From Candidatus Melainabacteria bacterium (GTDB lineage Bacteria > Cyanobacteriota > Vampirovibrionia > Obscuribacterales > Obscuribacteraceae), in contig PLXC01000159.1 of the NCBI GenBank assembly GCA_003151275.1, positions 211,904 through 275,903 of the forward strand: a stretch of 64,000 nt of DNA. The letters are read 5' to 3'. Positions 9,072 through 46,740 of the stretch are shown one piece after another. Within the stretch, counting starts at the first letter, position 1; each line of letters begins with the position of its first letter. The translations under genes were made by a program, and so were the position numbers. The notes below the pieces were generated by a model. It was not told the origin of the DNA, did no database searches, and saw only the letters and a list, made by a program, of their open reading frames with translations.

Positions 9072-9647
9072 TTGGACATTCATAATCTTGCATTGCAGTT
9101 TGCGTTCTTGTACGCACCATTTATCCACACGCCCATGGAACAGATAACGCCAACACTGTATCGAGGCTTGGACCCGAAAGTCAAAGACATCCAAGTTCTG
9201 CACGACAAAGGATTTAAGACGATAATCTCCTTGCGAACAAATCCAGAAAAGAAAAAAGAAAGGCTCTGCGATCAACTCGGTATGAAGTGGATCCAGATCA
9301 AAACGGGCGTCTTTAAAGTTCCGACATTTGATCAAATGGATCAGTTTCGCAGCATCGTCAATAATCCTAAAAATCAGCCTGTTTACACGTCCTGCGAAGT
9401 AGACATGGACCGCACCGGCGTGTATATTGCAGCACATCGCATGGTCGATTTACATTGGACCGCGCAGCAAGTCGCCGACGAATTCAAGCAACACCATCAG
9501 AAGACATGGTGGCCACCCTTCAGAAAGTATCAAAGCGCAGTCGAAGCATACGCGGCTAGCAGCGCTACCGCTGCCTCCGCAACTCCAATTTCTGGCTCGT
9601 TCACATCCTCATCGACAACCGTCGTAAAAGGCAAGCGAACGCAGTAG
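9072..9647 (+). CDS. dual-specificity/tyrosine-phosphatase-like protein
   Basis: The CX5R P-loop is present as SCEVDMDRTG, with the catalytic Cys at residue 108 and Arg at 114. It follows a typical DSP N-terminus (PTLYRGLDPKVKDIQVLHD, then GFKTIISLR). The usual His before the Cys is Ser here. The C-terminus is a low-complexity Ser/Thr/Ala tail. Two starts are possible: TTG at 9072, with AGGGGG 8 bp upstream, and ATG at 9135, which lacks a Shine-Dalgarno but fits where the homologous domain begins. The TTG form adds a short hydrophobic N-terminus. Likely a cytosolic phosphatase of unknown substrate. Confidence 0.7.
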   Translation: MDIHNLALQFAFLYAPFIHTPMEQITPTLYRGLDPKVKDIQVLHDKGFKTIISLRTNPEKKKERLCDQLGMKWIQIKTGVFKVPTFDQMDQFRSIVNNPKNQPVYTSCEVDMDRTGVYIAAHRMVDLHWTAQQVADEFKQHHQKTWWPPFRKYQSAVEAYAASSATAASATPISGSFTSSSTTVVKGKRTQ

Positions 9648-9924
9648 AAAAGACACCCAACTGGTATCCTTATTCCCTATGATATTGCGGTAGATCGCTT
9701 GATCCTCTACCCACATCGTTTGTCAAAACTCCGGGCAGAGACCACCGTATAGTGTAGATGATGGGCAGATTATTAGGCACGGCTGCTGATTCCACTATAA
9801 GTCCGACCAAAGTAGTATCATTTGCTCAAAAAATGAAAACCTTGCTACTGACCAAGATATGGTTCGATTGTTGAATAAGCTAAGTTTTGTCCGATTTCTC
9901 TGCTTTGTGTGAGGTGTTGTCTCT

Positions 9925-11571
9925 ATGCGAAAAGATCTATGCGTTTTTGCTCTCCTACTCTCATTCATTGCGAGCAACAATCAGCCTGCCCGAGCCGACG
10001 TGGACTGGAAGAGCTATAAAGAAGGGGTCTATCAGGCAAAATACACAAAGCGGCCGATTTTTGTGATGCTTACAGAAGATCATTGAGGGTTTTGCGCCAA
10101 ACTGGAGCGTGAAACTCTGGTCGATCCGCAAGTACAGCAATATCTGAAAGAGTTCATACCGATACAAGTCAATTACGATCGTGGTGACGAAGAGAAGCAG
10201 ATATATAAAAAATTAAACGGTGCCGGCTTTCCGACCTTAGTATTTCTGGACGCAAACGCAAATGTTGTTCATCAGTTTGCTGGTTACAGAACGCCTGATG
10301 CCTTTGTACAACAATGCAAAGTAGCAATGAACGCGGTTAGGACAGGAAAATTGTTAGAGCAAAAGCCAATTGTTTCGACGCTCGGTTCCCCACCGACAAT
10401 GGCCACGCAATCGGTTCGGACTTACCAAAATCGTCCTGGTGCGATGCAACGGTCCGCAATTTCGCCCAATACAGGTAATCCCAATCCTAACCTTCAATTG
10501 ATCGGCTCTTTTGCAAACCGTAGTGCCGCTCCCGTCATAAACACAGGAAGAGGATCCGTTTTGCTCGCAATTAAATCTGAATTTAACATGGTTCAGCAAA
10601 GACAGGAAGGATTCGATCTATTCATAATCCAGAATGGGCGCTGTTTTCCATACTATTCACGTCCGGCGCGCGACATCAAATCTGCAACTAGCGATAACTA
10701 CGGCAATATTTATTTTGCGGCTGGCAATGAAATATTTCGTCTCGCAAGCGGAAGGGAATCAAAGATCTACACATCGGCATCACAGAGGATCGACTGCCTA
10801 AAATCGAACTCCCGGGGTGAGCTCTTCTTCAGCTCTGGTGCAGTCGGGTCTGTCGGCGTTGGTGTGATCTACAAGCTGGCAGGTAGTGAGCCGAAGGCGG
10901 TGGTGAGGATAGAGCCTTCAACGGTAGATGGATTTTGGTGCGGACAGTTTGCTATCGATCCTCAAGACAACATTTGGTTGAGCAGTGGAATTGAAATGAA
11001 CGGGAACATATACAAACTCATAAATGGCAAACCTGTGAAGATTTACAATGATCCATTTGGATGCCCGGTGGGCTTCGATTTTGAGCGCAATGGAAACTTG
11101 ATTTTTGCGAACGATGACGAAAAACTGTACAGACTGTCTTGGACCCAAAAAGGTATTTTGGCGCAGAATTTGTTCACATTTACCAATTCGCCCCCCAATC
11201 CGCAGATTCTTCCTCGCTTCTGGGACGTCTCGGTTTACAAGGCAGTCGGCAATTCATCTAAGGCAGTGGTGAACGAACATGCCGTAGTAGTGAATGAACA
11301 TGTCAAAGCGCAGCTCCTTCCAGCTCATCCGACTGGCACCGTATGTGATGGCATACTGAAATCCGAGCGTGAACACGTGCTGTTACGCATAGAGCAGTTC
11401 GGGAAGATGGGAGTTGGTATAAGTCCATTCACGGCATTATTTAATACAATGGAAACTCTAGTACCTCGCGGTGATGAAAAACTGATTCAAGAACAATTGA
11501 AACGTCTATCGGACAGCTTAGACGAGCAAGACAAAGCAACCAAAGAATGGCAATCTCGTTCAGTAAATTAG
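9925..11571 (+). CDS. thioredoxin-like protein with in-frame UGA at the active-site Cys; candidate selenoprotein
   Basis: ATG at 9925 has GAGGT about 9 bp upstream and opens with a signal peptide (FALLLSFIASNN, PARA-DVDW). A thioredoxin-like fold follows: RPIFVMLTEDH, then UGA at 10084-10086 (codon 54), then GFCAKLERETL, with the cis-Pro segment GFPTLVFLDAN further on. The UGA stands where homologues have the first Cys of CxxC, giving U-G-F-C. The frame stays open to TAG at 11571 (548 codons). Residues about 190-420 look like a beta-propeller (repeated DNYGNIYFAAGNEIFRL-type strands). Either UGA is decoded as selenocysteine, or the gene carries a Cys-to-stop mutation and only a 53-residue peptide is made. 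Confidence 0.7.
10102..10120 (+). promoter_or_regulatory. candidate bacterial SECIS stem-loop
   Basis: A 6-bp stem (CUGGAG with CUCUGG, two G-U pairs) closes a 7-nt loop CGUGAAA starting 21 nt after the UGA. As I recall the bacterial SECIS consensus, the apical loop lies about 16-37 nt after UGA with a G in its first two positions; this fits. An alternative pairing (about 10090-10114, UUUUGCGC with GCGUGAAA) competes. Short stems are common by chance, so this is supportive only. Confidence 0.4.
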
Positions 11572-11596: not shown

Positions 11597-13078
11597 TTAC
11601 GTCTGTTTTCTGGGCCTATAATCTTCCGGTTTCATTTCGAAAGTCCATGCAACAGCTTCGCGCGCAGTCGTGATTGTAGGTGGAACGCGTAAGAAATAGG
11701 ACTTGATCGAACCATCCGGCTCCGGAGTGCTGTTGAGCACTTTCACCATTACGATTGGTTCATCGTTAAACAAAGTTTTCTTGTACAGAATTCCGCACTC
11801 ATCTTCGTGTATTTTTTCTGCACCAGAATCAACAATAAATCGGGACATACCATAGCGATCAATCTTGACCCTTCTAACTTCTGCGTTAAGTTCCTTCAAA
11901 ATGCTATCGACATTGATCGCCGACGGATTATCGATGACCTCGCGGGGAACGGTCGTCCCATGCCAGACATGGAGCTGGTAGCCATCCGAAAAGCGCAAAG
12001 CGGGTCCAGACTCAGAGTGAAGTCGTCCATTTTCATCAGTCTTGAACACGAGAGGAGCTTGTGACACCAGCACGACTTTGTCCAAGAACATGCAATTCGT
12101 CACCCCTCTGGCGACATCAAGATAACAGCGCAGTAATCTCTTGTTTGTCGGGCCAACCGGCAACCACGGCAACTCTTCGCAAAGGTATTCGTAGAAGGGC
12201 AACCAATCCACAACCGACGGCACGAATGTCAATGATGCAGTACCAGTTATGGTGGCAATTAAGAAGTGGAAAAGTTTTCGATCCTCCGGCGCATAGGCTT
12301 TGTCAAATTCTGCTTGGGCATTGCCGCGCACCGCCTCAAATCCGAACTTAACTAAGTTCTGCATTGAGAACAATTGTGAAAAATCAGGATGAAATGGAAA
12401 CGATGTCATCGTCATCAAATTGGCGCGCAATTGCGTCGTCGGATTCTCTTGAAGCCGACTGCGGAGTTGAGTTTCGTATTGTTGTTTTAGTTGAGCATAC
12501 TTGGCATTATCAGCCAATCTAATCCCGCATACGCCATGCAATTCTTTTGTCAACTTGATTTGACTTTGAAATATCTTCTGGTTAGAAACAACCATTGATG
12601 AAGGCATTGCCGATAAATCAGGCTCGGCCGACCGTTCCTTTTTGCTAAAAAACGGAACATCATCAAACCAATTTGCTTGTGCTTTTGCCAGTTTTGGTCG
12701 CAGAAATTTCTGACGTACCGCGTCATCTACTTGTATATCAATTTGTCGCCATAGTTTTTCCCAAAGATCATCGATCTCTTTTTGCGTATGATTAGACCCA
12801 GGATTGACATCCAACTTACGACTGTCGGTGCGCGTGAAACCGGTCTGCAAAGCGGCGCACATCGCCACCAGCTGCCACGGGCTTTGACACCACAGGATAG
12901 CTGGTTCCTCTGAATTAGGAGGTGCAACGGCCGCATACAAAGCCTTAATTGCGCGTTCGGCAATATCTTTGTCAGCCGGTGTAGTGGAGTGAACTACGGA
13001 AAGCCACTGATTATTGCGATCCGTCAGTCCAGCGCTTACGCTATCAGCGATTACGGGAGTATCACTAATCGACGACAC
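11597..13078 (-). CDS. DUF6745-family protein
   Basis: 493 residues. The C-terminal ~130 residues carry the DUF6745 signature: DGYQLHVWHGTTVPREVI, NAEVRRVKIDRYGMSRF, DECGILYKKTL, NSTPEPDGSIKSYFLRVPP, and TAREAVAWTF near the end. The N-terminal part is helical with Trp/Phe-rich stretches and no named domain. No reaction is known for the family. It starts with GTG inside the upstream gene (14-bp overlap), so the pair is translationally coupled. Gene pairs of this type recur in diverse bacteria, which suggests the two products act together. Confidence 0.8.
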   Translation of the reverse strand: MSSISDTPVIADSVSAGLTDRNNQWLSVVHSTTPADKDIAERAIKALYAAVAPPNSEEPAILWCQSPWQLVAMCAALQTGFTRTDSRKLDVNPGSNHTQKEIDDLWEKLWRQIDIQVDDAVRQKFLRPKLAKAQANWFDDVPFFSKKERSAEPDLSAMPSSMVVSNQKIFQSQIKLTKELHGVCGIRLADNAKYAQLKQQYETQLRSRLQENPTTQLRANLMTMTSFPFHPDFSQLFSMQNLVKFGFEAVRGNAQAEFDKAYAPEDRKLFHFLIATITGTASLTFVPSVVDWLPFYEYLCEELPWLPVGPTNKRLLRCYLDVARGVTNCMFLDKVVLVSQAPLVFKTDENGRLHSESGPALRFSDGYQLHVWHGTTVPREVIDNPSAINVDSILKELNAEVRRVKIDRYGMSRFIVDSGAEKIHEDECGILYKKTLFNDEPIVMVKVLNSTPEPDGSIKSYFLRVPPTITTAREAVAWTFEMKPEDYRPRKQT

Positions 13079-17516: not shown

Positions 17517-17631
17517 CTTGGTTTCGATGCTGGCAGGGATGCCGGCGCTCCCAGGGTTTTGGCGTTGGACTGCCGCCATTAGCAAACCGCTAGTTTGGTT
17601 TCGTGCCGGCAGGGATGCCGGCGCTCCCAGG
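17482..17631 (+). repeat. two tandem ~75-bp repeats with a palindromic GC-rich core
   Basis: Unit 1 (about 17482-17557) and unit 2 (about 17558-17631) each contain GGACTGCCNCCATTAGC, AACCGCTAG, TTGGTTTCG and the GC-rich GGCAGGGATGCCGGCGCTCC. That last block is self-complementary in part (GGGA...TCCC, GCCGGC) and looks like a REP element. The first unit includes the 3' end of the small ORF; the second would encode the same peptide end with its own stop. Confidence 0.8.
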
Positions 17632-17668
17632 CGATGCAAGGGAACTCAGTCCAAACACAGGTGTAAGG

Positions 17669-19204
17669 ATGCAATACGGAAGGAACGCAAAAAAACTAGC
17701 GATGATGCTTTTTTTCATTGGATTGGCATGTGTTAGCCCAAGCTGGGCAGAAGAAAAGGAGGCCAAGACTCCGTCGTTTTTTGGAGAAAAGGAAATCTTT
17801 TATCAGTTCGCTCCTCACACCCGCAAAGAGGATCTTTATCCGCGCCATCCAGTCGAGGACGGAACAGACAAATGTGTTACGTACGTTGCCCCCATCCAAT
17901 CAGGCACAACGCTTTCAGGGTCCGCCCCAACCGTTACGACGCCTCTTCCTGAGACGCAAGCGTTGCAAACGCCAGCTGAACAGATCGTTGCGCATCCGTT
18001 TATTCAAAGAGAAATTTCTATATATCCCAATCCGCTCTTGAACAACTGGGGCCCGCCCATACACGGAATTCCATTCCTTCATGTGCTTCCCCATGATCCG
18101 CCACCGAACGGAATGAATCCCGAATCATTCAAAGACCGCCCTTACATGACTGGTGCCACTTTTGCCAGCGATATGGTGCAACATTGTCTCCGGCTAGCGG
18201 CTGCGCAAAGAACAGCAGAAAAGATTCTCGATCCGAACTTGCAATCAGCTGAAGCAGCCTTCCAAGGCTCCACCCAGCAGGCAGCGGATGCATGTTCAGG
18301 AGATGCAACCGGTGCTTTTAAGGCCAATATGTGCACCGCATCCAGTGCCTTGATCAACGTCGCAAACGAAAATGCAGCGACGCCGGCGAAAGGCACTGAT
18401 ACCAATCGCACGGTACCGCAGGCGATTTGGATTGTTCAGCAAATGTACAAAGCATTCTTTCTGCCCCTGGGTTTGCTTTTACTGTTGGTGGGCGCAGTGC
18501 TCACCCAAACAACGAATTACATCAAAGCCTCGTTTATCAATTCATCAGCTTCCCGTCCATTCGAGGGCATTCTTCGCGCTCTGATAGCGGTTTTCCTAAT
18601 TGCTGCGATCCAACTGATGGTGAGCTATTCCATCGACTTTGGCAATGCGATGACTGAGGCCGTTAAGCAAGCAATTGACCTGAGTTCCATTCAACAGTGG
18701 TCGCAAGAAATAACTGACCCGACAAAAAATATGACTGCATCGCAGATTGCAGCGCGAAACAGAAGTGAGTCTACAGCTGCTGCTACGACGCGAATGGTTT
18801 TTGGAACCGCTCAAGCGATATTGAACACAGCGCTCATGGTGCTAACGGTATACCAATTAATTATGGTCTGTTATCTCTACCTATTTGGTCCTATAGCAGC
18901 TGCGATGTATGCCTGGCCGGAAGGCGTAGGCAGCCTTTTCCGTCCTGTATTTTCCAACTGGCTGAATGGACTCTCTGATTTGGTGCTTTGGAGATTTTGG
19001 TGGTGCGTAATTCTTCTGTGCATGGCGACTCGGATTCAGTGGCTGAAAGACATGGGCAGCTACAATCCGAGCAGCGCATGGGAACCGCTTGTATACATCG
19101 CGTTCATGGTCATGCTGACTTACGTTCCTTTCGCAGCCCTGGATTTCAAACCGGGCGATATGGTCGATTCACTGATGGAAAAAGCATCCGCCAGCAAAGG
19201 TTGA
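17669..19204 (+). CDS. VirB6/TrbL-like polytopic membrane protein (type IV secretion type)
   Basis: 511 residues from ATG 17669. The upstream GTG at 17603 lies inside the repeat and is rejected. A signal peptide (LAMMLFFIGLACVSPSWA) is followed by a ~220-residue Pro-rich exported part, then a polytopic domain with about five to six helices: AFFLPLGLLLLLVGAVL, GILRALIAVFLIAAIQLMV, LMVLTVYQLIMVCYLYLFG, and a Trp-rich LVLWRFWWCVILLCM. The GPIAAAMYAWPEG loop and this topology recall VirB6/TrbL channel subunits. It is paralogous to the next gene. No VirB4, VirD4 or other T4SS gene lies in the window, so the assignment is tentative. Confidence 0.6.
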   Translation: MQYGRNAKKLAMMLFFIGLACVSPSWAEEKEAKTPSFFGEKEIFYQFAPHTRKEDLYPRHPVEDGTDKCVTYVAPIQSGTTLSGSAPTVTTPLPETQALQTPAEQIVAHPFIQREISIYPNPLLNNWGPPIHGIPFLHVLPHDPPPNGMNPESFKDRPYMTGATFASDMVQHCLRLAAAQRTAEKILDPNLQSAEAAFQGSTQQAADACSGDATGAFKANMCTASSALINVANENAATPAKGTDTNRTVPQAIWIVQQMYKAFFLPLGLLLLLVGAVLTQTTNYIKASFINSSASRPFEGILRALIAVFLIAAIQLMVSYSIDFGNAMTEAVKQAIDLSSIQQWSQEITDPTKNMTASQIAARNRSESTAAATTRMVFGTAQAILNTALMVLTVYQLIMVCYLYLFGPIAAAMYAWPEGVGSLFRPVFSNWLNGLSDLVLWRFWWCVILLCMATRIQWLKDMGSYNPSSAWEPLVYIAFMVMLTYVPFAALDFKPGDMVDSLMEKASASKG

Positions 19205-19378: not shown

Positions 19379-19408
19379 ACTAAACAGTGAAATATGGGAG
19401 CAATGTTG

Positions 19409-22400
19409 ATGTCACTTTCCCGAAGAACTTTCGCCTCATCTCTCTGCCTAGCAGTGCTGACTTTGGTGCTTTGTCAGTTAGCCGTCTTTGCAGAACCAGA
19501 TAACAAAGATACAGGCCGGACCTCAATAGATCTGATGGCAGATCAGTATCTGAGAGAACATCCCGAAGTGAAATGGCTGAGGGATTGTGATAAGCGAGAT
19601 GACAAAAACAATCCAATCCCCGGTCATGTTGATCCAGCGCTGGTGAAAGGAGCTGGTCCTTACGGCACGTTGTATCCACCAACTGCGGCTTCGGCGATGG
19701 GTTTTGATACCGAAAGCAAGCTGTATGAGGGCATGTACTACGCTGGTCTGAACCAACTTGGCGGTTTCAACGGACAAGTCAATTCCGATCTGAAAAGCTA
19801 TACGCAAGAATTACAAGCCGGCGACTTCATGGCGCGGACCCTGCAATATCCGCCGAATGTAGCAAACCAAGCTAAAGCGCAAGCGATTGGTCAGTCGCAA
19901 GCCTTGTCGAACGCCATGGGTGATATCGCCAAGTCTCAGTCAGCAAGCGCAATTTCATATTGCTCTAGTTTTCTACAAAACTTCACGACAGATGAAGGAA
20001 ACAGATGGAATAAAATCCGCAACGGCCTGTTCATGCCAATTGCTATTCTTCTCCTGTTGCCAGGCGCAGTTATGACGCAAGTAAAAGCTATGGCAGTGTC
20101 TGGGAATCCTGTGCTTTCAGATTCGCAATCGGGTGAATCCAATCCGTTAGAAGGCATCCTGCGTTCAGTGGTGGCAATATTCCTCATTCCTGCGACTTAT
20201 CTGGTGGTCAATTACGGCATCGACTTTTCAAATTGCATCATCGACTCAATTGCCGGGACTTACAAAAATGTCATGGGTACCAATATGTATCAGGATGCGC
20301 TCAGCAACGAGGTGCGCGCATTTCCTGTCAGAACGCCGCGAGAAAATCAAAATGCGGGAACTCCGCGAGTTTGGCCTACGACAACTATTAACAGCGTAGA
20401 AGATTTCGAAAAGAACTACCTAATCAACAAAGTAGAAGACCCTAGCGAAAAGAAATACGAAGTTCCAAAAAACAAAACTGACGAAGCAATGCCATCTGGT
20501 GCAGTTGCCGCCCGTCAGCTTTCGTTCGGCGCCAATGCAGCATTAACAGCAGCTTGGAACGTTCTTTGCGCATTCCAAATGGCATATCTCTCCTATCTGT
20601 TTTTTGTTGGTCCCATTGCCGCAGCATTATGGGTGTGGCCAATGAAGCATTTTAGAAACGCGCTGCCAAATTGGATCGAAGGAGTGGTGACACTCTGCTT
20701 CTGGAGTCTTTTTTGGAACACTGCGATCTTGCTGATGGCTTGCTTTAATGGCGTCAATGAAAGCAGCACAATGATCACCAGTGCTCTCAATTTTCTAGCC
20801 ACTTCATCCGTTAAATTCGCATTCGACTTCGCCGGTCTGGTCAGAGCAGCTGGCCAAGAAGCTGCTAAGAAAGCAACGGAAAGAGCGGGTGCTGCGGGCA
20901 AATCAGGCGGCTCCGGTAATGATGGCAAAGGTGCACAAAAGCAGGAGAAGAAGGACACTGCCTTAACTAATGCAGTCGCATCAGAAAGTGCAACAAACGC
21001 CGTTACGACCAAAGACTCTGGTACTGTCGTGACAAACAACGACTCTACAAGCCTGGTGTCAAACACCAAGGCTTCGGATTTGAATAACGCAACGTCAAGT
21101 TTCCTAATCGACGGAATCACACCGCCACCACTGGCGATATCGTCGCAAAATGGCGCGAATTGGATTCAATCGCAGAGCGTGCAGCTAGGCAACTACACGG
21201 TCAGCCGAGGGGTCGACGACCAAGGCAAGCCTCATGATTTGTTGAAAACTTCAAACGGACAAGTCATTGCTGAATTGCCTCCAGACTCAGGGAACGGTCA
21301 TTCATTCACAGCTGATGGCGTCAAGCTCACTTGCAGGAATGACGCAAACGGCTCATCCTACAGCTTGACCGAGGCTTCTGGCGCACTATACACAGCTCAA
21401 CTCCCTTCGCTTGAGGGACGCACGGCCAGCGCCATCGTCGGAGGTTCCCTGAGCCCCGACGGAGATCTATCCAAAGATTCCATCGCCCTTCGATCTACCG
21501 AAGGCACGATGCTCCTCGAAAATGGCGGCAACACGGTACTAATGCCTTGCTCCAACGGCAACGGTTACGATGCATATCGACTCGAGGCAGGCGTTTCCGA
21601 AGGTAATTTCGCACTCATGGATGGGCGTCGACTCTCCCTATCTCAAAATCCTGACGGCAGTCGACAAGTCTCTATAGGTTCAGAAAATGGGGACTCAGAG
21701 TCATTCAACATCAAATCAAATGGAGCTGGTGGCTTTGATATCTCACATGAGCTTGATGGAATGACAGCCAGCTCAAGCAATGTATCAACCGACGGCAACA
21801 CTACTGTCTACTCAAATTATGACGCCAACGGCAAACTGACTGATGTAGACAGAATCACAGGCAGTAACATCGCCAGCACTCTTTACGATCCAGCAACCGA
21901 AAAAGTATTGGGCTTTGTGAATAGCAGCTACGAAGATAACGGAAATTCACAGACAAGCTACTACCAGCCGGACGGCACACTCACAGCCAGCACCAGCCAT
22001 GTATTCAAGGCGGATGGCGGATTCATAGACACAGTCACAGATGGCAGTGGAGACACGGTAAGCATTCAGGAAAAAACTCCAACCCAAGGCGGTGGATACG
22101 CACTTCAATCATCGAGCTTTTATGACGGACAGGTAATAAGCGCGAACATTTCAAATTACGATTCAAATTCAAATCTGATCGCAACATCAGCAGTGGAGCC
22201 AACTACAGTTGCAACCTTTGAGCGAAATTCAAATCTAGTCGTCGACGCCGCAAGTATCGCTCAAGGCATTCCGCAGAGTAATCAGAACGGCACCGTGTAC
22301 GAAGTCGCTCAAGGCGTCACCCAGACTAATCAAAACGGTACTGTATACGAAGCGGCTCAAGTCAACCGTGAGTCGCAGCCAGTCAGTGCGGTCACCGTTG

Positions 22401-23437
22401 TGCCAAATCTGGTGTCCTCGGTAACCATGGATAGTGGGTCCGTCTCAAGTTCGATGGCGCCGGCACTTATCCACGATGGGTTCGTCTCCAGTTGGGTGGC
22501 ACCGGTGAGTATCGAAAGGGCATCAGTGTCAAATTCGCTATCACCAGTGACGATGCAAGCGCAAGAATACGCAGCCACTGCGCAGGCACATCAAGTGCAG
22601 CAGACAACTCAAGCGTTCGAACAAATGATTAGAACGGCGCAGAACTGCTCGGTCGAATCTCAAGTAATTGCCGATCAGAGCTACCATTCGGTATCACCAA
22701 CAGTGCACACATATCAATCAGCTGACATACCGCAACCAATTCAGCAAATACAATCCAGCCGGCACAGTAGCCAAACGCAAAAGGCCTATGAGGACCAAGC
22801 GCATGTAGGGCAAGCGCGACAGATGCAAATCGCAACTACGCTGCATGCTCAGAACACGGTAGTGCCTAGAAGCAGCCGGACAGTGGATAGAAATACTTCC
22901 GCGCCTATTGCCAGCGCATTCAAAGCCCCGATGTTCAGTGCTCAGCCAAAAGACAAGGGACTGGCGGACGTGCCAATGTTTGTGCCGTCGGACCGCGAGC
23001 CACAATATCTCAGCAAAACAGGAGTAGACGAAGAAGACTGCCAGTCCCTCAATCAACAGTCCGACGTCCAGCCAGAATCACTTCAACAACAATTGACGGA
23101 CGCGGGCAACAACGTCCAAAGAGCAAGAACGATAGCAGATATATTACATTGCGCATCCAGCACGAATGACAGATCCGAAGCTTTAGCCAACACCCATGTC
23201 AATTACACGCTTCTGTGTTCCATGCTGCAGAAAGGACTGACGTATCAAGCTCAACAACTCGTCAATGTTGTCGAACGTGACATCCAAACGCTCGCCAAAC
23301 AAGGTGAGGCCGCCCCTCTAATCAATTCATATATCGAGCTGCTGACGCGACATGGCATGTACGACCAAGCCAACAGCTTTCAGACGCATCTCAACTCTGG
23401 AAATTTAGTCTACTCTGGCTACTCGAATCCCTGGTAG
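19409..23437 (+). CDS. VirB6-like membrane domain fused to a long repeat-rich tail
   Basis: 1342 residues. ATG 19409 is chosen because GGGAG lies 8 bp upstream; 19394 is also in frame. A signal peptide (SLCLAVLTLVLCQLAVFA) precedes a polytopic domain to about residue 500 that mirrors the previous gene (PLEGILRSVVAIFLIPATYLV, FVGPIAAALWVWP). Then comes a charged linker (about 500-530), a Ser/Thr/Asn/Gly-rich beta-repeat region resembling YD/RHS-like strands (YSNYDANGKLTDVDR, YYQPDGTLTAS), a Gln/His-rich low-complexity stretch (about 950-1230) and a helical C-terminus. This looks like a channel subunit fused to an exported or effector-like tail. The membrane homology is tentative. Confidence 0.6.
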   Translation: MSLSRRTFASSLCLAVLTLVLCQLAVFAEPDNKDTGRTSIDLMADQYLREHPEVKWLRDCDKRDDKNNPIPGHVDPALVKGAGPYGTLYPPTAASAMGFDTESKLYEGMYYAGLNQLGGFNGQVNSDLKSYTQELQAGDFMARTLQYPPNVANQAKAQAIGQSQALSNAMGDIAKSQSASAISYCSSFLQNFTTDEGNRWNKIRNGLFMPIAILLLLPGAVMTQVKAMAVSGNPVLSDSQSGESNPLEGILRSVVAIFLIPATYLVVNYGIDFSNCIIDSIAGTYKNVMGTNMYQDALSNEVRAFPVRTPRENQNAGTPRVWPTTTINSVEDFEKNYLINKVEDPSEKKYEVPKNKTDEAMPSGAVAARQLSFGANAALTAAWNVLCAFQMAYLSYLFFVGPIAAALWVWPMKHFRNALPNWIEGVVTLCFWSLFWNTAILLMACFNGVNESSTMITSALNFLATSSVKFAFDFAGLVRAAGQEAAKKATERAGAAGKSGGSGNDGKGAQKQEKKDTALTNAVASESATNAVTTKDSGTVVTNNDSTSLVSNTKASDLNNATSSFLIDGITPPPLAISSQNGANWIQSQSVQLGNYTVSRGVDDQGKPHDLLKTSNGQVIAELPPDSGNGHSFTADGVKLTCRNDANGSSYSLTEASGALYTAQLPSLEGRTASAIVGGSLSPDGDLSKDSIALRSTEGTMLLENGGNTVLMPCSNGNGYDAYRLEAGVSEGNFALMDGRRLSLSQNPDGSRQVSIGSENGDSESFNIKSNGAGGFDISHELDGMTASSSNVSTDGNTTVYSNYDANGKLTDVDRITGSNIASTLYDPATEKVLGFVNSSYEDNGNSQTSYYQPDGTLTASTSHVFKADGGFIDTVTDGSGDTVSIQEKTPTQGGGYALQSSSFYDGQVISANISNYDSNSNLIATSAVEPTTVATFERNSNLVVDAASIAQGIPQSNQNGTVYEVAQGVTQTNQNGTVYEAAQVNRESQPVSAVTVVPNLVSSVTMDSGSVSSSMAPALIHDGFVSSWVAPVSIERASVSNSLSPVTMQAQEYAATAQAHQVQQTTQAFEQMIRTAQNCSVESQVIADQSYHSVSPTVHTYQSADIPQPIQQIQSSRHSSQTQKAYEDQAHVGQARQMQIATTLHAQNTVVPRSSRTVDRNTSAPIASAFKAPMFSAQPKDKGLADVPMFVPSDREPQYLSKTGVDEEDCQSLNQQSDVQPESLQQQLTDAGNNVQRARTIADILHCASSTNDRSEALANTHVNYTLLCSMLQKGLTYQAQQLVNVVERDIQTLAKQGEAAPLINSYIELLTRHGMYDQANSFQTHLNSGNLVYSGYSNPW

Positions 23438-35784: not shown

Positions 35785-36177
35785 ATGGAACAACTTGCCA
35801 TGCATTGCCAGGAAGCTTATACCTTTAGAATCGTTTGTGATGAACGATGTGCGCTCGTGAGCAAGTTAGCAGCGGTTATCAAGCACTGGGATAGAACTAA
35901 GAAGTTCACGTTTATAGACCGTGAATGTGCCGAAGACAAAGACAGAAATCTACTCAACCAATTCGATTTAAGCCCATGGAGCTTAGTTCTTTTCGATGAT
36001 CTGAACTATCGATGGGAAGGTCCAGAATCCATTCCTATCATTCTGAAGAATCTACCAGGCGGAAAAATAGCTGCGGTCTTCTACTGCCTACCAGGCACAA
36101 TGTGGCTGACCCGGCAGCTTTACTTGCTAGTTTCACGGAATCGCAGACGTTTCGTGCAACAGCACGGCACCACCTAA
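35785..36177 (+). CDS. DCC1-like thiol-disulfide oxidoreductase relative, second Cys missing
   Basis: 130 residues in the size and order of the DCC (DUF393) family: a short N-terminal strand, then CDERCALVSKLAAVIKHWDR, a mid segment with LSPWSLVLFDDLNYRWEGPESIPIILKNL, and the C-terminal YLLVSRNRRRF. In the family the motif is DxxCxxC; here it reads DERCALV, with the second Cys replaced by Val. A dithiol reaction would not be possible with the remaining Cys alone. A role as a monothiol or non-catalytic relative is possible. Family call tentative. Confidence 0.55.
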   Translation: MEQLAMHCQEAYTFRIVCDERCALVSKLAAVIKHWDRTKKFTFIDRECAEDKDRNLLNQFDLSPWSLVLFDDLNYRWEGPESIPIILKNLPGGKIAAVFYCLPGTMWLTRQLYLLVSRNRRRFVQQHGTT

Positions 36178-36198
36178 ACACAGCATAGCGCCCTCTAC

Positions 36199-36276
36199 AC
36201 ACCGCACATCTAAACACCGCACATCTAAACACCGCACATCTAAACACCGCACATCTAAACACCACACCATCTAAAC
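36199..36276. repeat. ~5 copies of a 15-bp tandem repeat
   Basis: The unit CTAAACACCGCACAT recurs about five times, the last copies slightly diverged. It lies between the convergent genes at 35785 and 36271 and touches the 3' end of the latter. No coding role is seen. Confidence 0.85.
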
Positions 36277-36843
36277 AGATCCACTCTTTTTGCTCAAGAT
36301 CTTGCTTAGATGGATGTCTTTCCAGTTGGTGTACGAACGGTAGTAATAAATTGCCACACCGACCGTAGTGCCATCGGCACCAACCATTGTATAGCAGAGA
36401 AAGTTGTCGTCTCCTGTAGCTGTGCCCGAGACTGCGCCCCAATCAAAGCACCACGCTTCCAGTCCTGACTGTTTGCCTTCAATTGGATCGGCCAACGTTC
36501 TTAGCGTTAAATCACAAATTTTCTCATAGAATGCTTGATCAAACTGGTATCGAGTGCGATCAAAAATTCCGGCTTGCCCAGAAATTATGCTTACAGAGTC
36601 TCCGAGCGATATTGTCCAATCAGACAACTCCGGCTCGGCGCCAGAAAAAATAGCAATCAACTTATAAGTATCGACACCGTCGTCTTCGACAAATGCGTGC
36701 CACACGCCTGCTGCGCAATTATCGAAGAATGCATGTCCGAGACCTTCCAGAGTTTTACTGCAAGGATCCGCAGCTGCTATCTTTCCATCAGAGACAGTAA
36801 AATTTCCGATGTGCAAGATTTTTTCAATCTTAGCCGGACACAT
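36271..36843 (-). CDS. DUF4241-like protein (tentative)
   Basis: 190 residues, ATG preceded by GGGAG at 9 bp. Segments such as GKIAAADPC, GVWHAFVEDDG and ISGQAGIFDRTRY resemble DUF4241 proteins (DP-C near the start, then SGQAGxFD), which lack known function. No signal peptide. A related small-domain alternative cannot be ruled out. It is followed downstream by the 15-bp tandem repeat, and upstream lies a MurF-like gene on the same strand (32-bp gap). Confidence 0.5.
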   Translation of the reverse strand: MCPAKIEKILHIGNFTVSDGKIAAADPCSKTLEGLGHAFFDNCAAGVWHAFVEDDGVDTYKLIAIFSGAEPELSDWTISLGDSVSIISGQAGIFDRTRYQFDQAFYEKICDLTLRTLADPIEGKQSGLEAWCFDWGAVSGTATGDDNFLCYTMVGADGTTVGVAIYYYRSYTNWKDIHLSKILSKKSGSV

Positions 36844-45871: not shown

Positions 45872-46600
45872 GGTGAGATCTCGTGGGTTAGCCCATACTT
45901 TGTCGCCGAGTCAATCTTCCAGGAACCATTTCCCAGAAGCTCGAGAACATGCGTATGGTGTTCAACCAGCGCTGGTCTGTGACCGACACTGATGACGGTT
46001 GCTCCGACGCTCTGCAACACTGTGTAGAGCAGCCTTTCATTTTCGGGATCAAGAGCCGAAGTCGCTTCATCGAGAAACGCATACTTCGGCTTGGTCTGGG
46101 AGGCAGACCAGTTTCAGCAAAGCAAGCAATTGAGCATGTTGAAGGGGATCGTGAAGAAGCCAAGATTACAATTGACGCAGGCCATATCGTAAAGATTGGC
46201 CATCGTACGCCGCAAAGCGTCAGTTGATGATCGCAGCTCGCGAGCCTCACCATTGTACAAAGCGATGGACTCGGCATCTCTGCGCACGTCGGTCAGACAA
46301 TGACGCAGATTAGCTTCGAGCGCACTTTGCACAAAGTTCAGGACGATCAGCTTCTTGCCTATCCACAACGAAACGAACGAACCAATCACCGAATATGCCA
46401 CCACAGTAAAACTGAGGGTCGGAGAAATCGACCAGAGCACACCGATGAAAGTGCTGATGTTTACGAGCGCGTCAAGCACCGAGACGAACAATCCAACCGA
46501 CGAATTGCAGAATGTTTCAACATCCTGAGTCATTCGCTGGTCGGGGTTGTCGATGCGCGGGTCGTTGTTGAGCTTGTAGTAAGTGTGACTCCAAGCAGTT
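45868..46600 (-). pseudogene. remnant of SbmA/YddA-type ABC transporter
   Basis: Two pieces in one frame. The upstream piece (46117-46600) has the membrane-domain signature NNDPRIDNPDQRMTQDVETF and LEANLRHCLTDVRRDAES. It runs into a TGA (46114-46116). The downstream piece, in the same frame, has the end of the ATPase: KPKYAFLDEATSALDPENER (Walker B, D-loop) and VISVGHRPALVEHH (H-loop). The Walker A, Q-loop and most of the signature region are gone, and the membrane domain lacks its own N-terminus. Thus a deletion plus truncation, not a readthrough case. The remaining 3' end is still coupled to the GH144 gene. Confidence 0.8.
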
Positions 46601-46740
46601 TTGTCATGTGATTCATGACAAAAGCTCCGGATTTGGGAAAGGGTTAATGCGCTGCGAGCCAACGCTTGCTGGCTGCGAAAACTTCTAATGGGTGCCGCGA
46701 GTGTGATCGTGCCAATGCCCGATGCGCTATGCACCAGAAA

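Follow-up and report, generated by a model that had tools for sequence, protein, structure and literature searches.

A probable selenoprotein joining a thioredoxin-like domain to a propeller-like domain in the Obscuribacterales

The locus considered here raises a simple question: does a UGA codon in the middle of a thioredoxin-like gene end the protein, or does it specify selenocysteine (Sec) at the active site? The window, by which we mean the whole 64,000-nucleotide stretch of DNA that was analysed, carries at 9925-11571 (plus strand) a gene whose sequence and ORF translation give a single frame of 548 codons and a TAG stop, with a TGA at 10084-10086 as its sole interruption. This TGA is codon 54 and replaces the first cysteine of a thioredoxin-like CxxC motif, leaving U-G-F-C. 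The proposed resolving cysteine, Cys57 (TGC, 10093-10095), and the proposed cis-proline, Pro103 within the motif GFPT (10231-10233), are both invariant in alignment A1. Beyond the UGA the frame stays open for 494 codons, an outcome with a chance probability of about 6e-13 at the local base composition, and by its score this downstream frame is coding in character. A ribosome-binding-site-like GAGGTG (9911-9916) lies 8 nt 5' of the ATG, and the N-terminus (residues 1-24, 9925-9996) resembles a signal peptide by eye, with a helix at residues 3-15 in the structural model. The start, the TGA, the resulting U-G-F-C, the GFPT proline and the 494 open codons are all as the initial annotation, which proposed a candidate selenoprotein, had described them. 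We consider it very probable that the gene encodes a genuine selenoprotein, a reading supported by the homologues' cysteine at the UGA column, by the selenocysteine machinery of the nearest genome, and by the recurrence of UGA in at least five relatives.

The alignment of codon 54 with a redox cysteine is the first line of evidence. With cysteine substituted at the TGA, the protein matches the Pfam families Thioredoxin_2 (54.4 bits), Thioredoxin_7 (51.8 bits) and Thioredox_DsbH (31.2 bits), each above its cut-off and each spanning the TGA codon; a match to PF00085 falls below its cut-off. A search of 1.24 Mb of sequence from relatives returned 37 homologue rows that span the UGA column, a few of them overlapping stretches of one gene, and all 37 have cysteine there, as do 23 of 23 under a stricter filter. 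The in-frame UGA is therefore aligned with the redox cysteine, with similarity on both sides, and relatives do carry the cysteine that the initial annotation had proposed looking for. A UGA scan of 1.24 Mb with a coding filter left 137 candidates; among the matches listed, only the window gene and one other (L139) have several homologue rows that all carry cysteine. The window gene itself is known as a single sequence version, with no diverged orthologues. A protein search returned no full-length orthologue besides the gene's own downstream piece, none was found in a genome-contig scan or in 53 genomes of the order, and residues 1-142 searched alone gave no match at 1e-6.

The second line of evidence concerns the capacity to decode UGA. 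The window encodes a 724-aa protein, amylo-glucosidase-like by eye, that shares 91% identity with a protein of genome G001 (L001, Candidatus Melainabacteria bacterium isolate palsa_1080) and 50-54% with proteins in five other records, of which two bear the title Candidatus Obscuribacterales; because its relatives fall among the 53 genomes of the order to which G001 belongs, the window is placed in the Obscuribacterales. G001 is the nearest relative found, and it carries the full set of selA, selB, selC and selD, with scores above cut-off for tRNA-Sec (73.5 bits), SelB (304.6), SelA (532.7) and SelD (365.4). Across the order, 42 of 53 genomes have a tRNA-Sec above the Rfam cut-off (controls, 5 of 14); SelB exceeds its cut-off in 40 of 53 (controls, 2 of 14), SelD in 45 of 53 (controls, 2 of 14), and SelA in 9 of the 12 genomes tested (controls, 1 of 14). 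The three genomes without SelA (G029, G034 and G041) likewise have neither tRNA-Sec nor SelB above cut-off. ARAGORN recovers a tRNA-Sec with anticodon tca in all 10 loci given to it. In an even sample of the phylum comprising 386 genomes, tRNA-Sec passes in only eight, namely G001 and seven others (G383, G387, G393, G399, G401, G411 and G417, which are absent from the class sample); set against 42 of 53, this indicates a trait that is common in the order and sporadic across the rest of the phylum. We infer that selenocysteine insertion also operates in the window's own organism.

A third line of evidence comes from genes elsewhere in the order. In at least five of the 53 genomes there is a thioredoxin-like gene, shorter than that of the window, whose UGA falls in the column of the window gene's UGA and stands for the first active-site cysteine: NW-U-GPC in G047, DW-U-GWC in G031, and PT-U-LQC in G007, G008 and G009. 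These genes emerged from the UGA scan and from searching the order with the gene that the scan had picked out. Each of these five genomes has tRNA-Sec, SelB and SelD above cut-off, and SelA is present in G047, the one among them tested for it. When 382 genomes of the class were searched, no further true UGA case appeared among the matches listed; at most ten candidates were scored per genome, so that the numbers of Sec thioredoxins given here are minimum values. In the three closest genes (G007, G008 and G009), the only ones similar enough for this comparison, dN/dS is 0.12, 0.18 and 0.42 after the UGA versus 0.41-0.70 before it, which indicates that the stretch 3' of the UGA is translated in these genes. 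The initial annotation had named a UGA confined to this strain, with decay downstream, as one result that would undo it; the UGA at the same column in sister genes of at least five other genomes, and purifying selection after it in three of these genes, speak against that outcome.

The short Sec genes resemble the window gene in the position of the UGA, the CxxC-type partner cysteine, a hydrophobic N-terminus and a hairpin at a similar distance. They differ from it in length (about 144-150 aa), in having no propeller, in sharing only 19-25% identity with it, and in falling on other branches of the tree. In that tree of 59 domains (6 Sec and 53 Cys), the Sec genes occupy four branches, and four changes are required to explain the Sec label, no fewer than three of which are forced by well-supported branches. 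The Sec genes of G007-G009 have a Cys gene of G009 as their sister, a position that points to duplication followed by replacement. The window-gene domain sits on a long branch (2.0) and its placement is unsure. In G031, a thioredoxin-like gene without CxxC (L255, 5858-6322) directly follows the Sec thioredoxin gene; the two are a tandem pair in which one copy is degenerate.

Other families in which selenocysteine might be sought gave no further candidates. TGA occurs in none of 70 Thioredoxin_7 rows over six genomes, and in none of the nine rows within G001; that G001 itself showed no Sec thioredoxin weighs against the selenoprotein reading. Molybdopterin domains (PF00384) have no internal stop in 21 rows over 10 genomes, and their open frames run on; the Sec site of formate dehydrogenase lies largely outside this domain. 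Across 53 genomes no glutathione peroxidase has an in-frame TGA among the matches listed, SelD has none in rows above cut-off, and the selB neighbourhoods of 20 genomes contain no selenoprotein that we could find. Three further TGA leads were rejected, those in G049 and G015 because the stops fall after the domain (one stop in G049, several in G015) and that in G021 because the stops precede the start codon. Among the 53 genomes, then, tRNA-Sec, SelB and SelD are kept in most, and Sec thioredoxins are seen in at least five.

Decoding of UGA as selenocysteine would be expected to involve a SECIS element, and a SECIS-like hairpin is found at 10093-10130 (plus strand), its upper stem pairing 10101-10107 with 10115-10121 around the loop CGUGAAA (10108-10114). 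The upper stem has 7 bp and lies 21 nt from the UGA, and with the lower stem the structure reaches -9.4 kcal/mol. The hairpin satisfies all four constraints of the published bacterial SECIS model, as they are given in PMC13188914. The same constraints are passed by 13 of 53 Cys homologues, yet by only two of the six Sec genes, and the hairpin is therefore moderate support: the SECIS scan suggested by the initial annotation does return a structure of the published form, but about a quarter of the Cys homologues would return one too. These 53 homologues served as hairpin controls and were selected for CxxC, so that they are no evidence on the conservation of the cysteine.

In all six Sec genes a hairpin forms at roughly equal distance from the UGA, and at +15..+36, a region picked after the folds were seen, each of the six is lower in energy than 96-100% of the 53 Cys homologues. 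Over +1..+45, the genes of G007-G009 fold no better than Cys homologues, 62-79% of which fold as well. Synonymous shuffles, combined by Fisher's method over four lineages, give p 0.0036 at +15..+36 and p 0.0073 at +1..+45; taken singly, the window gene gives p 0.099, which is not significant, and that of G031 gives 0.21. The most stable hairpin of the window gene lies nearer the UGA than the published spacing allows, and 12 of 200 shuffles fold as well. Whatever its exact form, a SECIS is likely present in the window gene.

Several alternative readings of the UGA need to be weighed against this evidence. The one that survives best, although it is unlikely, is that the gene is a recent pseudogene, in which TGA arose from a cysteine codon within this lineage, too recently for the remainder to have decayed. 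Cysteine codons are a single base from TGA, and some probability has to be left to a nonsense mutation because only one sequence of the window gene is known and diverged orthologues are lacking. Against such an event stands its position: besides codon 54, the gene has 44 codons one base from TGA, eight of them cysteine codons, so a random nonsense mutation would seldom hit the one catalytic codon. Nor is there a second lesion anywhere in the 548 codons; the nearest genome, G001, has the machinery for Sec, and at least five relatives have UGA at the same column.

Two further readings are each very improbable. Against a single wrong base in a cysteine codon, introduced during sequencing or assembly, stands the 414-aa piece downstream of the UGA: it occurs as an identical protein in four contigs, the longest of 408 kb, and its start implies the upstream stop in each; we infer that the TGA is present in all four, with the reservation that the contigs may share reads. 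That same piece (10327-11571, plus strand), which ORF and gene calls report as a shorter ORF without the active site, could instead be taken to mean that the locus yields a short exported peptide, terminated by the UGA, together with an independent protein that begins at 10327; the second product would have no signal sequence and would forgo most of the thioredoxin domain, which Pfam and the structural model both place across the UGA. Read-through of the UGA as some other amino acid, or a different genetic code, is scarcely credible: the frame would continue whatever amino acid UGA stood for, but TGA terminates 16 of 44 window genes (chosen from ORF lists) and is thus an ordinary stop in the window, the homologues have cysteine at the column, and the sister genome G001 has a dedicated Sec system.

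Taking the gene as a selenoprotein gene, its product can be described in terms of three domains. The AlphaFold2 model has a mean pLDDT of 72 and a pTM of 0.53. Residues 29-140 (10009-10344) form a thioredoxin-like domain with a DsbD-gamma/DsbH-like fold, identified by Pfam and Foldseek and modelled with pLDDT 92-97 for blocks 31-140; its fold, its CxxC-type motif with Sec for the first Cys, and the proline after the central strand are those of the Thioredoxin_7/DsbD-gamma-like group. A linker at about residues 148-209, disordered in the model, leads to a beta-propeller-like domain at residues 211-438 (10555-11238), recognized from the model, from relatives P0003-P0009 and by Foldseek, with sequence relatives in caspase-like proteins. 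A C-terminal helical domain follows at residues 474-547 (11344-11565), seen in the model; segments related to it occur elsewhere among the order's proteins. Both the proposed cis-proline and the propeller-like domain that the initial annotation had noticed after the UGA are recovered, the former as the invariant Pro103 and the latter in the model.

The window protein is probably an envelope thiol-redox enzyme, and the following mechanism may be proposed. SelA would charge tRNA-Sec using selenium from the selenophosphate made by SelD, and SelB with tRNA-Sec would decode UGA codon 54 as selenocysteine, assisted by a SECIS hairpin just 3' of the UGA. The product would be exported, with a thioredoxin domain whose redox centre is Sec54-Gly-Phe-Cys57, followed by the propeller and the helical C-terminal domain. 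Its activity would most likely be that of an envelope thiol-disulfide (or peroxide-linked) reductase, in which Sec54 attacks the substrate and Cys57 resolves the selenenylsulfide, while the propeller might bind substrate or a partner. Export, the redox chemistry, the role of the propeller and the choice of which hairpin is the SECIS are all predictions from sequence and model.

Just upstream of the Sec gene, on the same strand, lies a tyrosine-phosphatase-like gene (9072-9647; PTP-NADK, Y_phosphatase2), and a gene for a DUF6745 protein (11597-13078, minus strand; 191.6 bits) is convergent with the Sec gene. Two adjoining large ORFs (17603-19204 and 19394-23437) contain several hydrophobic segments and look conjugation-membrane-protein-like by eye, with no Pfam match to either. 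A 206-aa ORF at 46114-46734 has a partial ABC transporter membrane domain (positions 100-248 of the 269 in the ABC_membrane_2 profile) and may be a gene fragment. In the translation of a minus-strand ORF at 36038-36442, VFRCA is repeated several times, suggestive of a short tandem repeat at the DNA level.

The mechanism is already known; this member and its architecture appear to be new. In a 2016 survey, the passages on cyanobacteria deal with orphan SelD in Prochlorococcus (PMC5029168), and the main text of a 2026 review of the prokaryotic selenoproteome contains neither "cyanobacteri" nor "melainabacteri" (PMC13188914). Among the matches listed in the open-access literature, no report joins these lineages with selenoproteins or selenocysteine, and none was found of Sec use in the order. 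On balance, and with considerable reserve, we lean toward a broader reading: that the Obscuribacterales, within the cyanobacterial phylum, make up an order that uses selenium and whose exported thioredoxin-like proteins have gained Sec several times; that the window gene is the founding member of a new selenoprotein family, in which a Sec thioredoxin is fused to a propeller and acts as an envelope redox enzyme; and that most of the order's selenoproteome is hidden behind UGA codons taken for stops. If this is true, a large and mostly uncultured order decodes Sec while gene callers shorten its products, and repeated Cys-to-Sec replacement becomes open to study within one family. The claim covers the Obscuribacterales and is not a first for the phylum, since tRNA-Sec also passes in the seven other genomes of the phylum sample.

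Among known systems, the likeness in overall layout is to NHLRC2 (6gc1) and to the quenching protein of 7djk, which we take to be SOQ1; in Foldseek comparisons both resemble the window protein in placing a thioredoxin-like domain before a propeller. That order of domains has been described for NHLRC2 (PMC6107167). The resemblance is one of architecture only, for identity is 8-9%, TM 0.25-0.29 and rmsd above 13, and clear homology over thioredoxin and propeller together is not indicated by these values. A likeness at the active site is to the bacterial UxxC selenoproteins, among them Sec thioredoxin (PF00085), SaoT and thioredoxins with an HUIPC motif, as listed in PMC13188914. These share with the window gene a Sec that takes the place of the first cysteine in the CxxC of a thioredoxin-like fold. 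The window gene differs in belonging to the Thioredoxin_7/DsbD-gamma side, in its propeller fusion, and in passing no NCBIfam selenoprotein cut-off (TsoB, 42.3 bits against 805; Trx_VPGUxxT, 19.5 against 275; trx7_PDZ_seleno, 15.9 against 300). The closest solved thioredoxin folds, among the top Foldseek hits for that domain, are DsbD gamma and DsbH (1vrs, 2fwg and 2ju5; 23-27% identity by Foldseek), and the window gene also has weak NCBIfam matches to DsbD and DsbH. From these the window protein is set apart by Sec in place of Cys, by the absence of the DsbD membrane domain, and by the additional propeller.
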